NCBI GenBank assembly: GCA_002689385.1
Contig: NZFX01000017.1
Coordinates: 1 to 34,954 of the forward strand
Source: Phycisphaerae bacterium
GTDB taxonomy: Bacteria; Planctomycetota; Phycisphaerae; Phycisphaerales; SM1A02
Reading direction: 5' to 3'
Length of the DNA: 34,954 nucleotides
The stretch's first letter is position 1; every line of letters starts with the position of its first letter. Below, piece after piece: positions 20,236 through 25,209 of the stretch. Both the position numbers and the translations under genes were made by a program. The notes under the pieces are model-generated. The model was not told where the DNA came from. It ran no database searches and saw nothing but the letters and a program-made list of their open reading frames with translations.

Positions 20236-21417
20236 ATGGAACGGCGAAAAACCCGAAAAATAGTTGTTGGCGATGTTGCAATTGGGGGTGATGCCCCAGT
20301 TTCCGTGCAGTCAATGACTTCGGGCTACACGCATGACATTGATGCATGCGTTGCTGAAATTCATCGGCTCACAAAAGCAGGTGCAGATATTGTCCGTGTT
20401 GCAGTACCTGAGAAGAAAGACACACTCGCGCTTCCAGAAATCCTATCGCAAGTTACTGTTCCAATCGTTGCCGATGTGCACTTTCATTTCAAACGTGCAC
20501 TTGAAGCAATTGAATCAGGCGTACATAAAATTCGGCTAAACCCCGGGAACATCGGCGATATCAGCCAAGTGCATTCAGTGATAGACGCGTGTAAAGACGC
20601 GCAGATTCCAATTCGAATCGGTGTCAACGAAGGTTCTGTGGTTGAAAGAAAAGACAAACAAAAACGCCAAGCAGAACTTGCCTCTTTTTTTAGCGATCGC
20701 AAACAAGGACACTTACTTGCAATGATGATTGCAAAAGTGGAAGAGTACCTTGAGATTTTCCATGCGCGTGATTTTCACAACATTTGTTTAAGTGCAAAGC
20801 TCATGGACGCACGACTTGTTATTGACATTTACCAAGAACTTTCCAAGCGTTTTGATTACCCTCTACACTTAGGCGTAACACACGCAGGCCCTCGCGAGAC
20901 GGGTTCTATTCGGTCCATTTCAGCACTGGGATCTCTCCTTTCGCAAGGTATAGGCGACACAATTCGAATTAGTTATGCAAGTGATCCTGTCTTTGAAGTT
21001 GAAGACGGTGTTGAACTGTTGAACTGCCTAGACCTTCGAAAACGAATAGGCGCTGAACTTATAGCTTGCCCGAGTTGCGGACGTATCCAAGTCGACTTAT
21101 TCAAACTAGTTGACGATGTTCGTAAGCAACTTGAAAATGATATTGACGTGCCGATCAAGGTCGCGGTCATGGGATGCGTCGTGAACGGTCCAGGTGAAGC
21201 AGAAGGCGCCGACGTCGCTGTGTTCGCTGGTGACAGACGAGGAATTATTTACGTTCAAGGCGAACGTGTTGCCAACATAGGCGAAGACGAGATACTCGAC
21301 CGACTTCTGACTGAATGCAAGGCATTACAGGAGCGAGTCCGTTCCGGCGAAACAAAGCTTGGTGAAAAAGCAATACATATAGTCGCCCCGATAACTGTCG
21401 AAGGCAACGAGACTTGA
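20236..21417 (+). CDS. ispG: 4-hydroxy-3-methylbut-2-enyl-diphosphate synthase
   Basis: The 393-residue protein has the N-terminal TIM-barrel motifs of IspG/GcpE (VGDVAIGGDAPVSVQSMT, ADIVRVAVPE, PIVADVHFHFKRALEAI, KIRLNPGNIG, IRIGVNEGS, HLGVTHAGP). It also has the C-terminal 4Fe-4S ligands: two Cys in IACPSCGRIQVDL, the third in VMGCVVNGPGEAEGADV, and the Glu in NGPGE. It carries out the penultimate reductive step of the MEP isoprenoid pathway. Its length matches the short bacterial form without the plant-type insertion. The last codons overlap the start of the prepilin-like gene by 4 nt. Confidence 0.97.
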   Translation: MERRKTRKIVVGDVAIGGDAPVSVQSMTSGYTHDIDACVAEIHRLTKAGADIVRVAVPEKKDTLALPEILSQVTVPIVADVHFHFKRALEAIESGVHKIRLNPGNIGDISQVHSVIDACKDAQIPIRIGVNEGSVVERKDKQKRQAELASFFSDRKQGHLLAMMIAKVEEYLEIFHARDFHNICLSAKLMDARLVIDIYQELSKRFDYPLHLGVTHAGPRETGSIRSISALGSLLSQGIGDTIRISYASDPVFEVEDGVELLNCLDLRKRIGAELIACPSCGRIQVDLFKLVDDVRKQLENDIDVPIKVAVMGCVVNGPGEAEGADVAVFAGDRRGIIYVQGERVANIGEDEILDRLLTECKALQERVRSGETKLGEKAIHIVAPITVEGNET

Positions 21418-22334
21418 ATTACAACAAACGAGCTTTTTCCATTATCGAAATGATTGTGGTGATTGCAATCATTGGCGTGCTTGCTGCAATCATCCTCCCA
21501 TCACTCAACGGCGCACGGCTACGTGCACAAAAAACACAAGAACTTTCGATCATTAGCCAATCCGGAAAAGCGTGGTTCATGTACACCAGTGACCATCAAG
21601 GAAAACTTCTGCCTGGGTATCTAAGTGCCGGTGTACAAGAATATCGAGAACTCGCTTGGGCTTTTCCTGATGAGTCCATTATTCCACCCGCACCATTTTA
21701 TGAATCGACGCAACCAAATGATGCGGGCTCTTGGCCTTGGCGTCTTTTAAGTTATATGAACAATAACTGGAACTCCCTGCTTTTTTACAAAGAAATTGAT
21801 TGGGATGCAAACGGAACCCACCTTAAAGAACACGCAAATGAAATCGCAACGCAACCAGCGTTCGGCTACAACGGGTTTTATCTCGGGGGTTGGTGGGACA
21901 TTGACAACCACAGCCAGAAACAAGAAATGGTATTTAAATCAGTCACGCTCACAGACGGAAGAACTGAAGGTGTTGTTGCTACATTCGATTCGCAGATAAA
22001 AAAGACAAGCCGTCAGATCGTATTTTGCAGTACTTTTCTTGCAGAAGAAGGTATTTATGAAGAAATGCCAAGCGATACCAATGGAACGTTCATGGCAATA
22101 CCGAGTGTTTTTGCACGAGTTGTAAAATGGCTACCCTTTGGACAAAATCGTATCGATGCACGGTCTGAAACTTCAGTACCACTAGGTCGCTTTAATGGCA
22201 TGCCTGCAATTTGCAACGCTGATGGTTCAACAAAAAATGTAGAAATCGAAACACTCGTTGACCAAAGTTTATGGATTTCAAAAGCACAAACTATTGGCGA
22301 TATTCCTGCGAGTTCTTTTAGTCACACGCAATAA
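21414..22334 (+). CDS. Prepilin-like protein with type IV pilin / type II secretion N-terminus
   Basis: The 306-residue protein begins MNYNKRAFSIIEMIVVIAIIG. This is a short positive leader, a likely cleavage site between A and F, and Glu at mature position 5, followed by the long hydrophobic helix of type IV pilins and pseudopilins. The remaining 270 residues are an unrecognised globular domain with many aromatic residues (WRLLSYMNNNWNSLLFY, YNGFYLGGWWDID). Near the end is CNADGSTKNVEI, which resembles the DG(S) feature of the large planctomycete H-X9-DG/DUF1559-type prepilin-like family. The start is TTG at 21414, inside the last codons of ispG (TTGA overlap). Its stop abuts the stop of the convergent TraB-like gene with no gap. 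Confidence 0.8.
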   Translation: MNYNKRAFSIIEMIVVIAIIGVLAAIILPSLNGARLRAQKTQELSIISQSGKAWFMYTSDHQGKLLPGYLSAGVQEYRELAWAFPDESIIPPAPFYESTQPNDAGSWPWRLLSYMNNNWNSLLFYKEIDWDANGTHLKEHANEIATQPAFGYNGFYLGGWWDIDNHSQKQEMVFKSVTLTDGRTEGVVATFDSQIKKTSRQIVFCSTFLAEEGIYEEMPSDTNGTFMAIPSVFARVVKWLPFGQNRIDARSETSVPLGRFNGMPAICNADGSTKNVEIETLVDQSLWISKAQTIGDIPASSFSHTQ

Positions 22335-23681
22335 TTAATCGCTTTTTTCAACTGCCGAATTTTTTTTAGCTGTATTCTCCATTTGAATTTGCATCATCAC
22401 TCGCATTTGGCGCATGTATTTTTCATCAAGAAGCGACTTACTCGGATCAACACTCATCGTTGGAAACCATCGCTCCTCGACTGGAACATAGCCAAACAAA
22501 TCAAACAACCTCGGTGCAAGGTCCGACATATGCCCCGCGCCGTAGAGCACGGCGATTGTCTTCAAATCTTCAGCAATCGAAAGGGTCGCGGCAACATCGC
22601 CAAGTAATTCTGTGTTTCGGTCAACAATAATAACATGGGAAAGCTCTGGTTCAATGTCATCAAGCATTTGATCAGAACTCGGCATCGAAAGCACCTCAAT
22701 CATCAAAAGGCGTGCTGTTTCCCGAATGCCACCGCCCAAAAGTGAATCAAGCATTGGAATAATCTTCATCATTCCCGTTGCAATTTTTGCTGTGAAGGAC
22801 GCGCCTGTAATTGCATCAAGCAAAGCAGGGTCAGCACCGCGCTCAACTAGTTTAGATTGCACTTCATCAATAGTTAAGTCACTGCAAAACCAATTCGGAT
22901 CTTCATACGGCAACGCTTCAAGTTGGAATTCAAAACCAAGCGCATCCGCAAACTCTGCCTGCATGCCCTTTGATTCAACTTCTTCCAAATCTTCTTCCTC
23001 TTCATCTAAAAAAATTCCTGCTTCAAGTAGTTCTTCTTCGTCAAGTAAATCTTGTACCGTTGGCACATCCACCACACGAGAAACCGTTAAGTCTTCTGCG
23101 CTGCCAGAGCCACCAACCGCACCATCAGAGCCAAAACTCCAAAGCGTAATTGTTCCTCTGTCTTCATTCACTTGCAACGCAAACGGCCGTCCCCACGCAT
23201 CGACGGATGCATCTTCAACCCAGCCCGACAACCTTCGGTCAAGCAATCCAGCATCTGAAATAACATCATCAAGTGTTTCAGGTATAAACTCCGTTTCCTC
23301 GGAAGCGCGTTTTGCAATATCAGCAACAAATTCCAACGATTTTTTAGTCGATGCAACTTTTTCTTCATCCGTAACGCCGCTTGGAGGTCGCGATCCAGAC
23401 GGACGAACGGACTCGTACAGCACAATGTCCATTTCATCTAACAGTTCAGTAATATCATTGTAAAAAGAACTATCCGCAATATGCGCAACGCCAATTAGCC
23501 AAAGGTCGGGCTTACCCCCAGATGCAAAGCGTCTAGAAACAAGTTCAAGAGAAACAATGTTTTCACCTGTTGTTTTTCGAGCCCACTCCAGTGATGGTTC
23601 AACAACACGCTCTGGAACAACGGTAGGTGCTGGATCTTGCGAAACCGCAAGTAGACATATAAATGGTGCGAATGAAATCAT
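22335..23681 (-). CDS. TraB/GumN-like protein with inserted GspG-type pseudopilin module
   Basis: From the ATG at 23681 (AAGGAG 7 nt upstream) this is a 448-residue protein with a short N-terminal signal-like stretch (MISFAPFICLLAVSQ). The N-terminal part (PDLWLIGVAHIADSSFYNDI, DIVLYES) and C-terminal part (HVIIVDRNTELL, KTIAVLYGAGHMSDLAPRLF) are the split halves of the TraB/GumN fold, a putative metal-dependent hydrolase-like family. Between them, at about residues 116-203, lies a segment like the C-terminal domain of the type II secretion major pseudopilin GspG: ISDAGLLDRRLSGW, VDAWGRPFAL and TLWSFGSDGAVGGSGSAEDL, including the calcium-loop pattern. A Glu-rich acidic linker follows (LDEEEEDLEEVE). 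It is translationally coupled (ATGA) to the ExbB-like gene. Function unknown. Confidence 0.75.
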   Translation of the reverse strand: MISFAPFICLLAVSQDPAPTVVPERVVEPSLEWARKTTGENIVSLELVSRRFASGGKPDLWLIGVAHIADSSFYNDITELLDEMDIVLYESVRPSGSRPPSGVTDEEKVASTKKSLEFVADIAKRASEETEFIPETLDDVISDAGLLDRRLSGWVEDASVDAWGRPFALQVNEDRGTITLWSFGSDGAVGGSGSAEDLTVSRVVDVPTVQDLLDEEELLEAGIFLDEEEEDLEEVESKGMQAEFADALGFEFQLEALPYEDPNWFCSDLTIDEVQSKLVERGADPALLDAITGASFTAKIATGMMKIIPMLDSLLGGGIRETARLLMIEVLSMPSSDQMLDDIEPELSHVIIVDRNTELLGDVAATLSIAEDLKTIAVLYGAGHMSDLAPRLFDLFGYVPVEERWFPTMSVDPSKSLLDEKYMRQMRVMMQIQMENTAKKNSAVEKSD

Positions 23682-24292
23682 GTTGAATCTCCTTGTTGTG
23701 CTGCTGCAATCATTGCTTCGATTCTGCCGATTGCTCTTGATGACCATCCTCTAAACAACATATATGGAAAAAGTGTAATCAACGCGATGATTAACCCAAA
23801 TGCAGTGGTTAAAAGCGCTGCAGCAATTCCACCAGCTACATCGGATGGATCGGTCAACACTTCTTGCGCGCCTAGTAATTTGAACGATTGAATTATGCCT
23901 ACGACCGTTCCTAAAATTCCAAGCAAAGGCGAAGCAGTGATAATGGTTGAAAGTGCAACCATGAACCTATCGATGCGTGGCCGCTCTGCTTCAATGGCCC
24001 CCATCGCAACGGCATCGCTCGCTCCATCGTCGAGCAAAGTGTTTGCAATTGCACCGTACGGTGATCCATCATTCTTCACAATTTTTTTTGCACCCGTTGT
24101 GTCGCCCTTACGAAAACACGCGTTTAGTTTTGCGAGCCGTCCAAGCGACCCCCTGCCTCCAACGAGAAACCAAAACCAACAACGTTCCAAAATAAGCGCA
24201 ACGCTGAGCACACTTAAAATGAAAAGTGGAATCATGACGTACCCACCCTTGTCAATAAACGTAATGAAATCTTGCATTAGTTCTTCTTGCAT
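23678..24292 (-). CDS. MotA/TolQ/ExbB proton channel family protein
   Basis: Starting at the ATG at 24292, the 204-residue protein has three predicted membrane spans: YVMIPLFILSVLSVALILE, TASPLLGILGTVVGIIQSF, and GGIAAALLTTAFGLIIALITLFPYML. The last two carry the family's conserved ILGTVVGI and GGIAAALLTTAFGL signatures. Such proteins form pentameric proton channels with ExbD/TolR partners that energise envelope processes. No ExbD/TolR gene is adjacent, which is unusual; instead the TraB/GspG-like gene overlaps it by 4 nt. A longer frame reaches 24394 but runs through the promoter region and into the divergent gene. The ATG at 24292 has no Shine-Dalgarno and sits 7 nt after a -10 box, suggesting a leaderless mRNA. 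Confidence 0.85.
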   Translation of the reverse strand: MQEELMQDFITFIDKGGYVMIPLFILSVLSVALILERCWFWFLVGGRGSLGRLAKLNACFRKGDTTGAKKIVKNDGSPYGAIANTLLDDGASDAVAMGAIEAERPRIDRFMVALSTIITASPLLGILGTVVGIIQSFKLLGAQEVLTDPSDVAGGIAAALLTTAFGLIIALITLFPYMLFRGWSSRAIGRIEAMIAAAQQGDST

Positions 24293-24297
24293 GCCAT

Positions 24298-24311
24298 AGA
24301 TTGTACAATCT
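24298..24311. promoter_or_regulatory. Palindromic double -10 between the ExbB-like and polyprenyl synthase genes
   Basis: AGATTGT/ACAATCT is a perfect 14-bp palindrome and contains TACAAT on both strands. On minus (24305-24300) it lies 7 nt before the ExbB-like ATG. On plus (24304-24309) it lies 15 nt before the polyprenyl synthase ATG at 24325. The whole intergenic region is 32 bp, so one element could serve both directions. A dimeric regulator site is an alternative reading of the palindrome. Confidence 0.5.
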
Positions 24312-24324
24312 GTACGTGACACCA

Positions 24325-25209
24325 ATGACATTTCCCAATCCACCAGCTGAATTGCTTGAAGTAGCCAAGATAATTGAAATCGAACTCGAATCATGCCTCA
24401 TAGAACAGCAATTGCCTCCGCACCTTGCTGAAGCCGCAAGGTACGCCGTGATGAATGGCGGAAAACGGGTTCGACCGGCGCTTACTCTTTTGTGTTGCGA
24501 AGCTGTGGGTGGCTCTCGCCGCCAAGCGATGCATGCGGCGCTTGCAGTGGAACTGGTCCATTGCTTTAGTTTAGTGCACGACGACCTTCCCTCCATCGAT
24601 AATGATGATCTTCGTCGCGGAAAACCAACATTGCACATAAAGTCTGGTGAAGCAATGGCTGTACTCGCAGGCGATTTATTGTTACCCGTTGCGTTCTCGC
24701 AATTGATTGCAGAAGAATACACCTGCGACCAACAAGCAACATTAACGAAATTGCTTGCAAAAGCAACAAGCGACATGGTCATTGGGCAAGTCTATGATAC
24801 GCTTGGTGGACTTCCCGAGCATCTCGAACCACTCGAACAACTTGAAGAAATTCACCGTAATAAAACGGGTGCTTTGATTTGTTGCTCTTGCCAGATGGGC
24901 GCCGTTTGCGGTAATGTCTCTTCAGAAGCGTACGAAGCAATCTCCTCTTTTGGAAGTGCCATCGGTCTGATGTTTCAAATTGTTGATGACCTGATTGATT
25001 TACATGGCAATGCAGCGCTTGTTGGAAAAGCCACGGGTAAAGATGCAGAAGCTGGAAAAACAACGTACCCCGGAACCATAGGCGTAGAAGCATCCAAGAA
25101 ATCCGTGCGGGAACTCCAAAAACAAGCAGATAATGCACTTCAATCACTCAATTTTGACACAGAAACCTTGGCATCTTTCAATCTTTGGATGGCTCACAGG
25201 ACTCGTTGA
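24325..25209 (+). CDS. ispA: Polyprenyl (farnesyl/geranylgeranyl) diphosphate synthase
   Basis: The 294-residue protein has both aspartate-rich motifs of trans-prenyl synthases: VHDDLPSIDNDDLRRGKPT (first, DDxxxxD form typical of bacterial FPP synthase) and FQIVDDLIDLHG (second). It also has NGGKRVRPAL near the N-terminus and GKATGKDAEAGKTTYP after the second motif. It condenses IPP with allylic diphosphates; IspA-like FPP synthase is the best guess, but GGPP synthase cannot be excluded from sequence alone. I use the ATG at 24325 rather than an upstream in-frame TTG at 24301, which falls within the promoter palindrome. The dxs start follows 20 nt after the stop, giving an ispA-dxs pair of the kind seen in many bacteria. 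Confidence 0.92.
   Translation: MTFPNPPAELLEVAKIIEIELESCLIEQQLPPHLAEAARYAVMNGGKRVRPALTLLCCEAVGGSRRQAMHAALAVELVHCFSLVHDDLPSIDNDDLRRGKPTLHIKSGEAMAVLAGDLLLPVAFSQLIAEEYTCDQQATLTKLLAKATSDMVIGQVYDTLGGLPEHLEPLEQLEEIHRNKTGALICCSCQMGAVCGNVSSEAYEAISSFGSAIGLMFQIVDDLIDLHGNAALVGKATGKDAEAGKTTYPGTIGVEASKKSVRELQKQADNALQSLNFDTETLASFNLWMAHRTR

Follow-up and report, generated by a model that had tools for sequence, protein, structure and literature searches.

A GspG-type pseudopilin domain inserted into a TraB/Tiki-type protein of Planctomycetota

GspG is a filament subunit whose pilin helix lets it polymerise. A protein encoded on a contig of a Phycisphaerae bacterium (34,954 nucleotides, hereafter the window) raises the question of how a GspG-like segment comes to lie inside an enzyme-like fold, and what it could do there. 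The initial annotation of this gene, made from the sequence alone, proposed that a TraB/GumN-type protein had captured a GspG-type module, perhaps as a calcium-dependent structural element or as a link to the secretion machinery. We examined the identity of both parts, the site and history of their fusion, the possible role of the module, and the use of similar modules elsewhere in the phylum. The features discussed are listed in Table 1.

Table 1 Features of the window protein, its neighbours and other planctomycete proteins with GspG-like modules (positions refer to the window unless a locus is named)
Feature	Position	Strand	Remarks
TraB/Tiki-type protein with inserted GspG soluble domain (P0001)	22335..23681	-	448 aa
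N-terminal TraB half, residues 34-102	23376..23582	-	GxxH (H67) and catalytic-type Glu (E90)
Inserted GspG soluble domain, residues 103-203	23073..23375	-	T2SSG, EpsG profile, structure, hhalign
Module D-A-W signature (D161, W163)	23193..23201	-	Conservation across carriers
Module calcium-loop sequence, residues 182-197	23091..23138	-	S-F-G-S-D-G...G-G...D
Linker from module back to TraB fold, residues 204-239	22965..23072	-	Acidic, low-confidence (pLDDT)
C-terminal TraB half, residues 240-412	22446..22964	-	R355-N356 and GxxH (H384)
MotA/TolQ/ExbB-type gene	23678..24394	-	Pfam MotA_ExbB 1.6e-23; overlaps start of TraB-type gene by 4 nt
Prepilin-like gene	21414..22334	+	N_methyl 28.6 bits, cut-off 21.2; convergent, abuts TraB-type gene
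f49 four-module tandem proteins	L119:1707-3110; L120:499-2046; L123:159-1733	+; -; +
f99 HEAT and three-module proteins	L121:1670-3529; L122:3-1874	-; +
f23 zinc-ribbon membrane protein	L129:3-1202	+	C-terminal GspG soluble domain
f23 868-residue protein	L130:76-2679	+	DUF1559-type match; C-terminal GspG soluble domain
POT/PTR2 peptide transporter, extra loop with GspG-like core	L004:1072-3102 (window genome, G000:C34)	-	Also L151-L163

A GspG soluble domain between two TraB-type halves

Both motifs on which the initial annotation had relied, VDAWGRPFAL and TLWSFGSDGAVGGSGSAEDL, were found in the window protein, and its match to the Pfam family T2SSG (PF08334) exceeded the family's cut-off (E = 8.4e-6; 26.3 bits, cut-off 21; residues 154-199). 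GspG was the only NCBIfam match (TIGR01710, E = 4.8e-6), at 26.6 bits far below the equivalog cut-off of 88.85. Because of this score and because the prepilin motif is absent, as it is from all 54 carriers of the fusion, the window protein is not a pseudopilin. The homologues agreed: T2SSG matched all 30 surveyed at E ≤ 0.01 (best, 3.1e-13), and at locus L026 the match covered residues 105-193, from near the start of the profile. A profile of our alignment A1 (n = 30) retrieved EpsG and XcpT chains from the PDB (1.7e-8 to 1.8e-7, positions 102-201), and the module profile aligned with 14 genuine planctomycete GspG sequences at an hhalign E-value of 2.5e-24. Influenza haemagglutinin rows in the search against the PDB had E-values of 0.04 or weaker and were treated as background.

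Structure prediction gave the segment a pseudopilin fold, as expected from the initial reading. The AlphaFold model of the window protein has a mean pLDDT of 87.1, with the module blocks at 93-98, and the modelled module superposes on EpsG (3fu1_B, 112 residues) with a Z-score of 10.3 and an rmsd of 2.2 Å over 91 aligned residues. Model residues 103-201 correspond to EpsG residues 27-131; the captured piece is the entire soluble domain, lacking the prepilin signal and α1-N. A Foldseek search with the whole model also placed EpsG first, at modest E-values of about 0.01. The module had been delimited at residues 116-203; the motifs and coordinates behind this were right, but the true module is longer, about 103-203, because the helix equivalent to the soluble portion of the pilin helix belongs to it. 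The linker that follows is very acidic (DEEELLEAGIFLDEEEEDLEEVE) and modelled at a pLDDT of 62-66 over residues 221-240; it is long only in part of the window genus and shorter in other family members.

The description of the flanking halves as TraB/GumN-like also held. Alone, the window protein scored just under the Pfam cut-off for TraB_PrgY_gumN (PF01963; 1.4e-5, 25.6 bits, cut-off 26.8), probably because the insert splits the match, while 25 of the 30 homologues matched at E ≤ 0.01, and 20 of 23 relatives that lack the insertion match TraB (L099 with 40.4 bits). In a profile-profile comparison, the full carrier profile aligned with the 23 insertion-free TraB relatives at E = 5.4e-51, pairing the halves and skipping the module. 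In the window model, a parallel-sheet core (strands 59-65, 86-89 and 375-381) holds the catalytic-type Glu and both GxxH motifs. A model of an insertion-free relative resembles ChaN (Z 7.1, 162 aligned residues, 4.9 Å), EreC (Z 5.3) and Bcr135 (Z 4.8), and the window model itself resembles EreC (Z 4.3). ChaN and Bcr135 are structural relatives in the Tiki superfamily, which shares with the Ere family a His-Glu pair for hydrolysis (PMC6254334). The Z-scores for the likeness to the Tiki fold are modest (4.3-7.1), and its tie to the window protein is also supported by the profile match between carriers and insertion-free proteins. The insertion-free TraB profile matched no PDB sequence, so that structure comparison and Pfam carry the assignment of the fold. 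Structurally, the TraB part came closest to a subunit of Tetrahymena mitochondrial complex IV (8b6h_DQ / 7w5z_E; Z 8.4-9.2), with Z 8.7-9.2 for 8b6h_DQ and Z 9.2 for the insertion-free model. By Pfam, no second TraB-type protein was detected in the window genome.

Insertion site, conservation and history

The relatives without the module show what the site looks like when empty. The distance between the catalytic-type Glu and the conserved Gln that comes next is 20-29 residues in proteins without the insert (n = 19) and 117-151 in those with it (n = 53). In the insertion-free model, the strand that ends in this Glu (residues 91-94) runs into a single loop and then a helix (114-126); in the window model, strand 86-89 is followed by the module and then helix 240-248, and the module lies exactly at the position of that loop. 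The initial proposal that a GspG module was captured into a TraB/GumN-type fold is strongly supported by the profile comparisons, the predicted structures, the homologues without the insertion and the tree described below. The insertion, the GspG homology, the predicted fold, the empty-site homologues and the conservation of both parts are shown computationally. Judging from the topology of the models, the module probably sits at the sheet's catalytic edge, on the rim of the active site.

Both parts retain their characteristic residues. In the A1 alignment (n = 30), H67, E90, R355, N356 and H384 of the TraB halves and P134, D161, W163 and G184 of the module are invariant, and the calcium loop is near-invariant at S182, D186, G187, G190, G191 and D197. 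Across all 54 carriers, H67 and E90 are present in every protein, as are D161 and W163; R355, N356 and H384 are found in 53 (the remaining one has a gap) and G64 in 46. The aspartates of the calcium loop are kept slightly less often (D186 in 51 carriers, D197 in 48), and five loci (L024, L054, L073, L075 and L076) have lost the loop while keeping D-x-W. Overall, the module is somewhat less conserved than the TraB halves, both in the genus (0.54 vs 0.64) and in the family (0.34 vs 0.39-0.41).

We detected homologues of the window protein in 42 of 61 near genomes and none in plasmid records. In a class-wide survey, full fusions were confined to the window order; proteins of family f11 matched the TraB halves alone, with positions of about 108-215 of the profile left as a gap, and the ORFs of genuine GspG (150-170 aa) matched the module region alone. 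A survey of the phylum found insertion-free TraB proteins to be widespread in Planctomycetota, and located full or partial fusions outside the class in families f63, f85, f57 and f83.

In a tree of the TraB halves, a single branch parts the 54 carriers from 41 insertion-free proteins (support 100/99; recovered in 200 of 200 bootstrap trees), in a sample that was selected with a profile built from carriers and may be biased. The modules likewise group together (96/71), in an alignment of few columns. One insertion thus suffices, and a single event, apparently an old one, followed by shared descent is the simplest reading. Carriers from outside the class, L073, L075 and L076 (f63), L074 (f85) and L077 (f57), branch among the other carriers, pointing to transfer or to misplaced bins.

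Possible roles of the inserted domain

We consider it probable that the carriers are exported hydrolases of the Tiki/TraB fold in which a once-inserted GspG domain, stabilised by its Ca2+ loop, acts as a lid or as an element that recognises the substrate or a partner. Export is suggested by signal-peptide-like N-termini, which are clearer in family members than in the window protein. Hydrolysis would be carried out by the His/Glu set, with a peptidase or esterase as the likely activity. The GspG soluble domain entered, apparently once, the loop after the strand that ends in the catalytic-type Glu, and would fold there as an independent domain; it is this placement that points to a lid or recognition role. 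A role of the carriers as filament subunits is unlikely. Our literature search returned no biochemistry for the TraB/GspG-fusion family.

Calcium binding by the module is inferred from the GspG-type pseudopilins, whose folding and stability depend on calcium (PMC6692295). The calcium-dependent structural role put forward at the outset remains plausible, since most carriers keep the loop sequence, although a few have lost it; with the loop degenerate in several carriers, calcium would not be essential in all of them.

The lower conservation of the module fits a partly free element and counts somewhat against a lid or recognition role. It favours instead a reading of the module as mainly a structural spacer, which is tolerated and retained for its good folding and has no dedicated binding function. 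The loss of the calcium loop in several carriers and the occurrence of similar modules in unrelated hosts and in tandem point the same way. We nevertheless think this improbable: the module is present in all 54 sampled carriers, throughout the order and beyond, with an invariant D-x-W, and the tree contains no clear secondary loss.

Somewhat less probable still is docking, in which the module would mimic GspG and tether the enzyme to the type II secretion/pseudopilus machinery or to the prepilin-like neighbour. The window genome does encode a genuine GspG (L001), beside pseudopilin-like genes and a GspF-like ORF. The prepilin-like gene abuts the TraB-type gene tail to tail, as first described, and this convergent neighbour is conserved across much of family f1, which fits a link to secretion but is no demonstration of it. 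Against docking, every carrier lacks the prepilin motif, the captured part begins after the hydrophobic pilin helix, and the fusion persists in families f4 and f2, where the flanks examined mostly showed no prepilin-like neighbour. On its other side, the TraB-type gene adjoins an ExbB/TolQ-type gene in many f1 members and also in f4; in the window this gene has no adjacent ExbD, none being found in the window and five ExbD matches elsewhere in the genome.

A chance or convergent resemblance to GspG, limited to the calcium-loop motif, is very improbable. In the window protein alone, Pfam significance is indeed confined to residues 154-199; however, the long T2SSG match at L026, the hhalign comparison with genuine GspG and the whole-domain superposition on EpsG led us to reject chance similarity. 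An assembly chimera or a frameshift artefact of the metagenome bin is the remotest explanation, for although the window genome is available as 87 draft contigs, such an artefact is refuted by the homologues, with the same architecture in 54 proteins from separate genomes, many with the same neighbours.

GspG domains in other planctomycete proteins and comparison with known systems

The TraB carriers are not the only planctomycete hosts of GspG modules. In family f49, secreted-looking proteins with a signal peptide and no prepilin signal carry four tandem modules (T2SSG, 3.4e-42); in f99, HEAT-repeat proteins end in three (1.3e-53); and in f23, two proteins have C-terminal modules (8.1e-21 and 1.7e-21). 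The module tree places the f23 fusions within a group of f23 GspG and its relatives (99/99), and most f99 copies beside f99 GspG (89/79). As these modules group with the GspG of their own family, they are probably separate captures, those of f99 apparently taken from that family's own GspG. A further case is a POT-type transporter of the window genome, with a loop of about 240 residues that its congeners L166 and L167 lack. The GspG-like core of this loop (DPWG...SEGPD) matched GspG in profile-profile comparison (E = 2.1e-9), and single sequences stayed below the Pfam cut-off (best, 17.2 bits); because the support comes from the profile-profile comparison, a second insertion is probable, not proven.

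These repeated captures suggest that the calcium-stabilised pilin domain serves planctomycetes as an extracytoplasmic building block. That it is a general mobile module in the phylum, captured independently and linking its hosts to one another or to the secretion machinery, is a more tentative proposal, which we hold to be possible and on balance doubtful. In practice, T2SSG matches in Planctomycetota that lack the N-terminal signal should not be called pseudopilins.

The TraB and GspG domains are each already known. Within the literature that we searched, which is incomplete and leaves most subscription journals outside, we found no work joining T2SSG with TraB, or GspG with Planctomycetes, and no account of the combination, of its single origin with empty sites, or of the phylum's wider use of GspG domains. 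Here the soluble part of a filament subunit is an independent domain that has been moved to the edge of an enzyme's active site, and since homologues with an empty site are available, what a natural domain insertion does becomes directly testable.

Compared with known systems, the module resembles GspG/EpsG/PulG (PF08334, TIGR01710) in its helix, D-x-W-G motif, beta sheet and calcium-loop sequence, whereas the carriers lack the prepilin signal and the hydrophobic α1-N, and hold the domain inside another protein. With TraB/PrgY/GumN and the Tiki superfamily (Tiki, ChaN, EreC, Bcr135) they share the modelled fold, two GxxH motifs and the catalytic-type Glu; unlike insertion-free TraB relatives, they carry a GspG domain of about 100 residues and a linker after this Glu. 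The proteins of f49, f99 and f23 are like the TraB carriers in having a GspG soluble domain without the pilin N-terminus, but their modules reside in different hosts.
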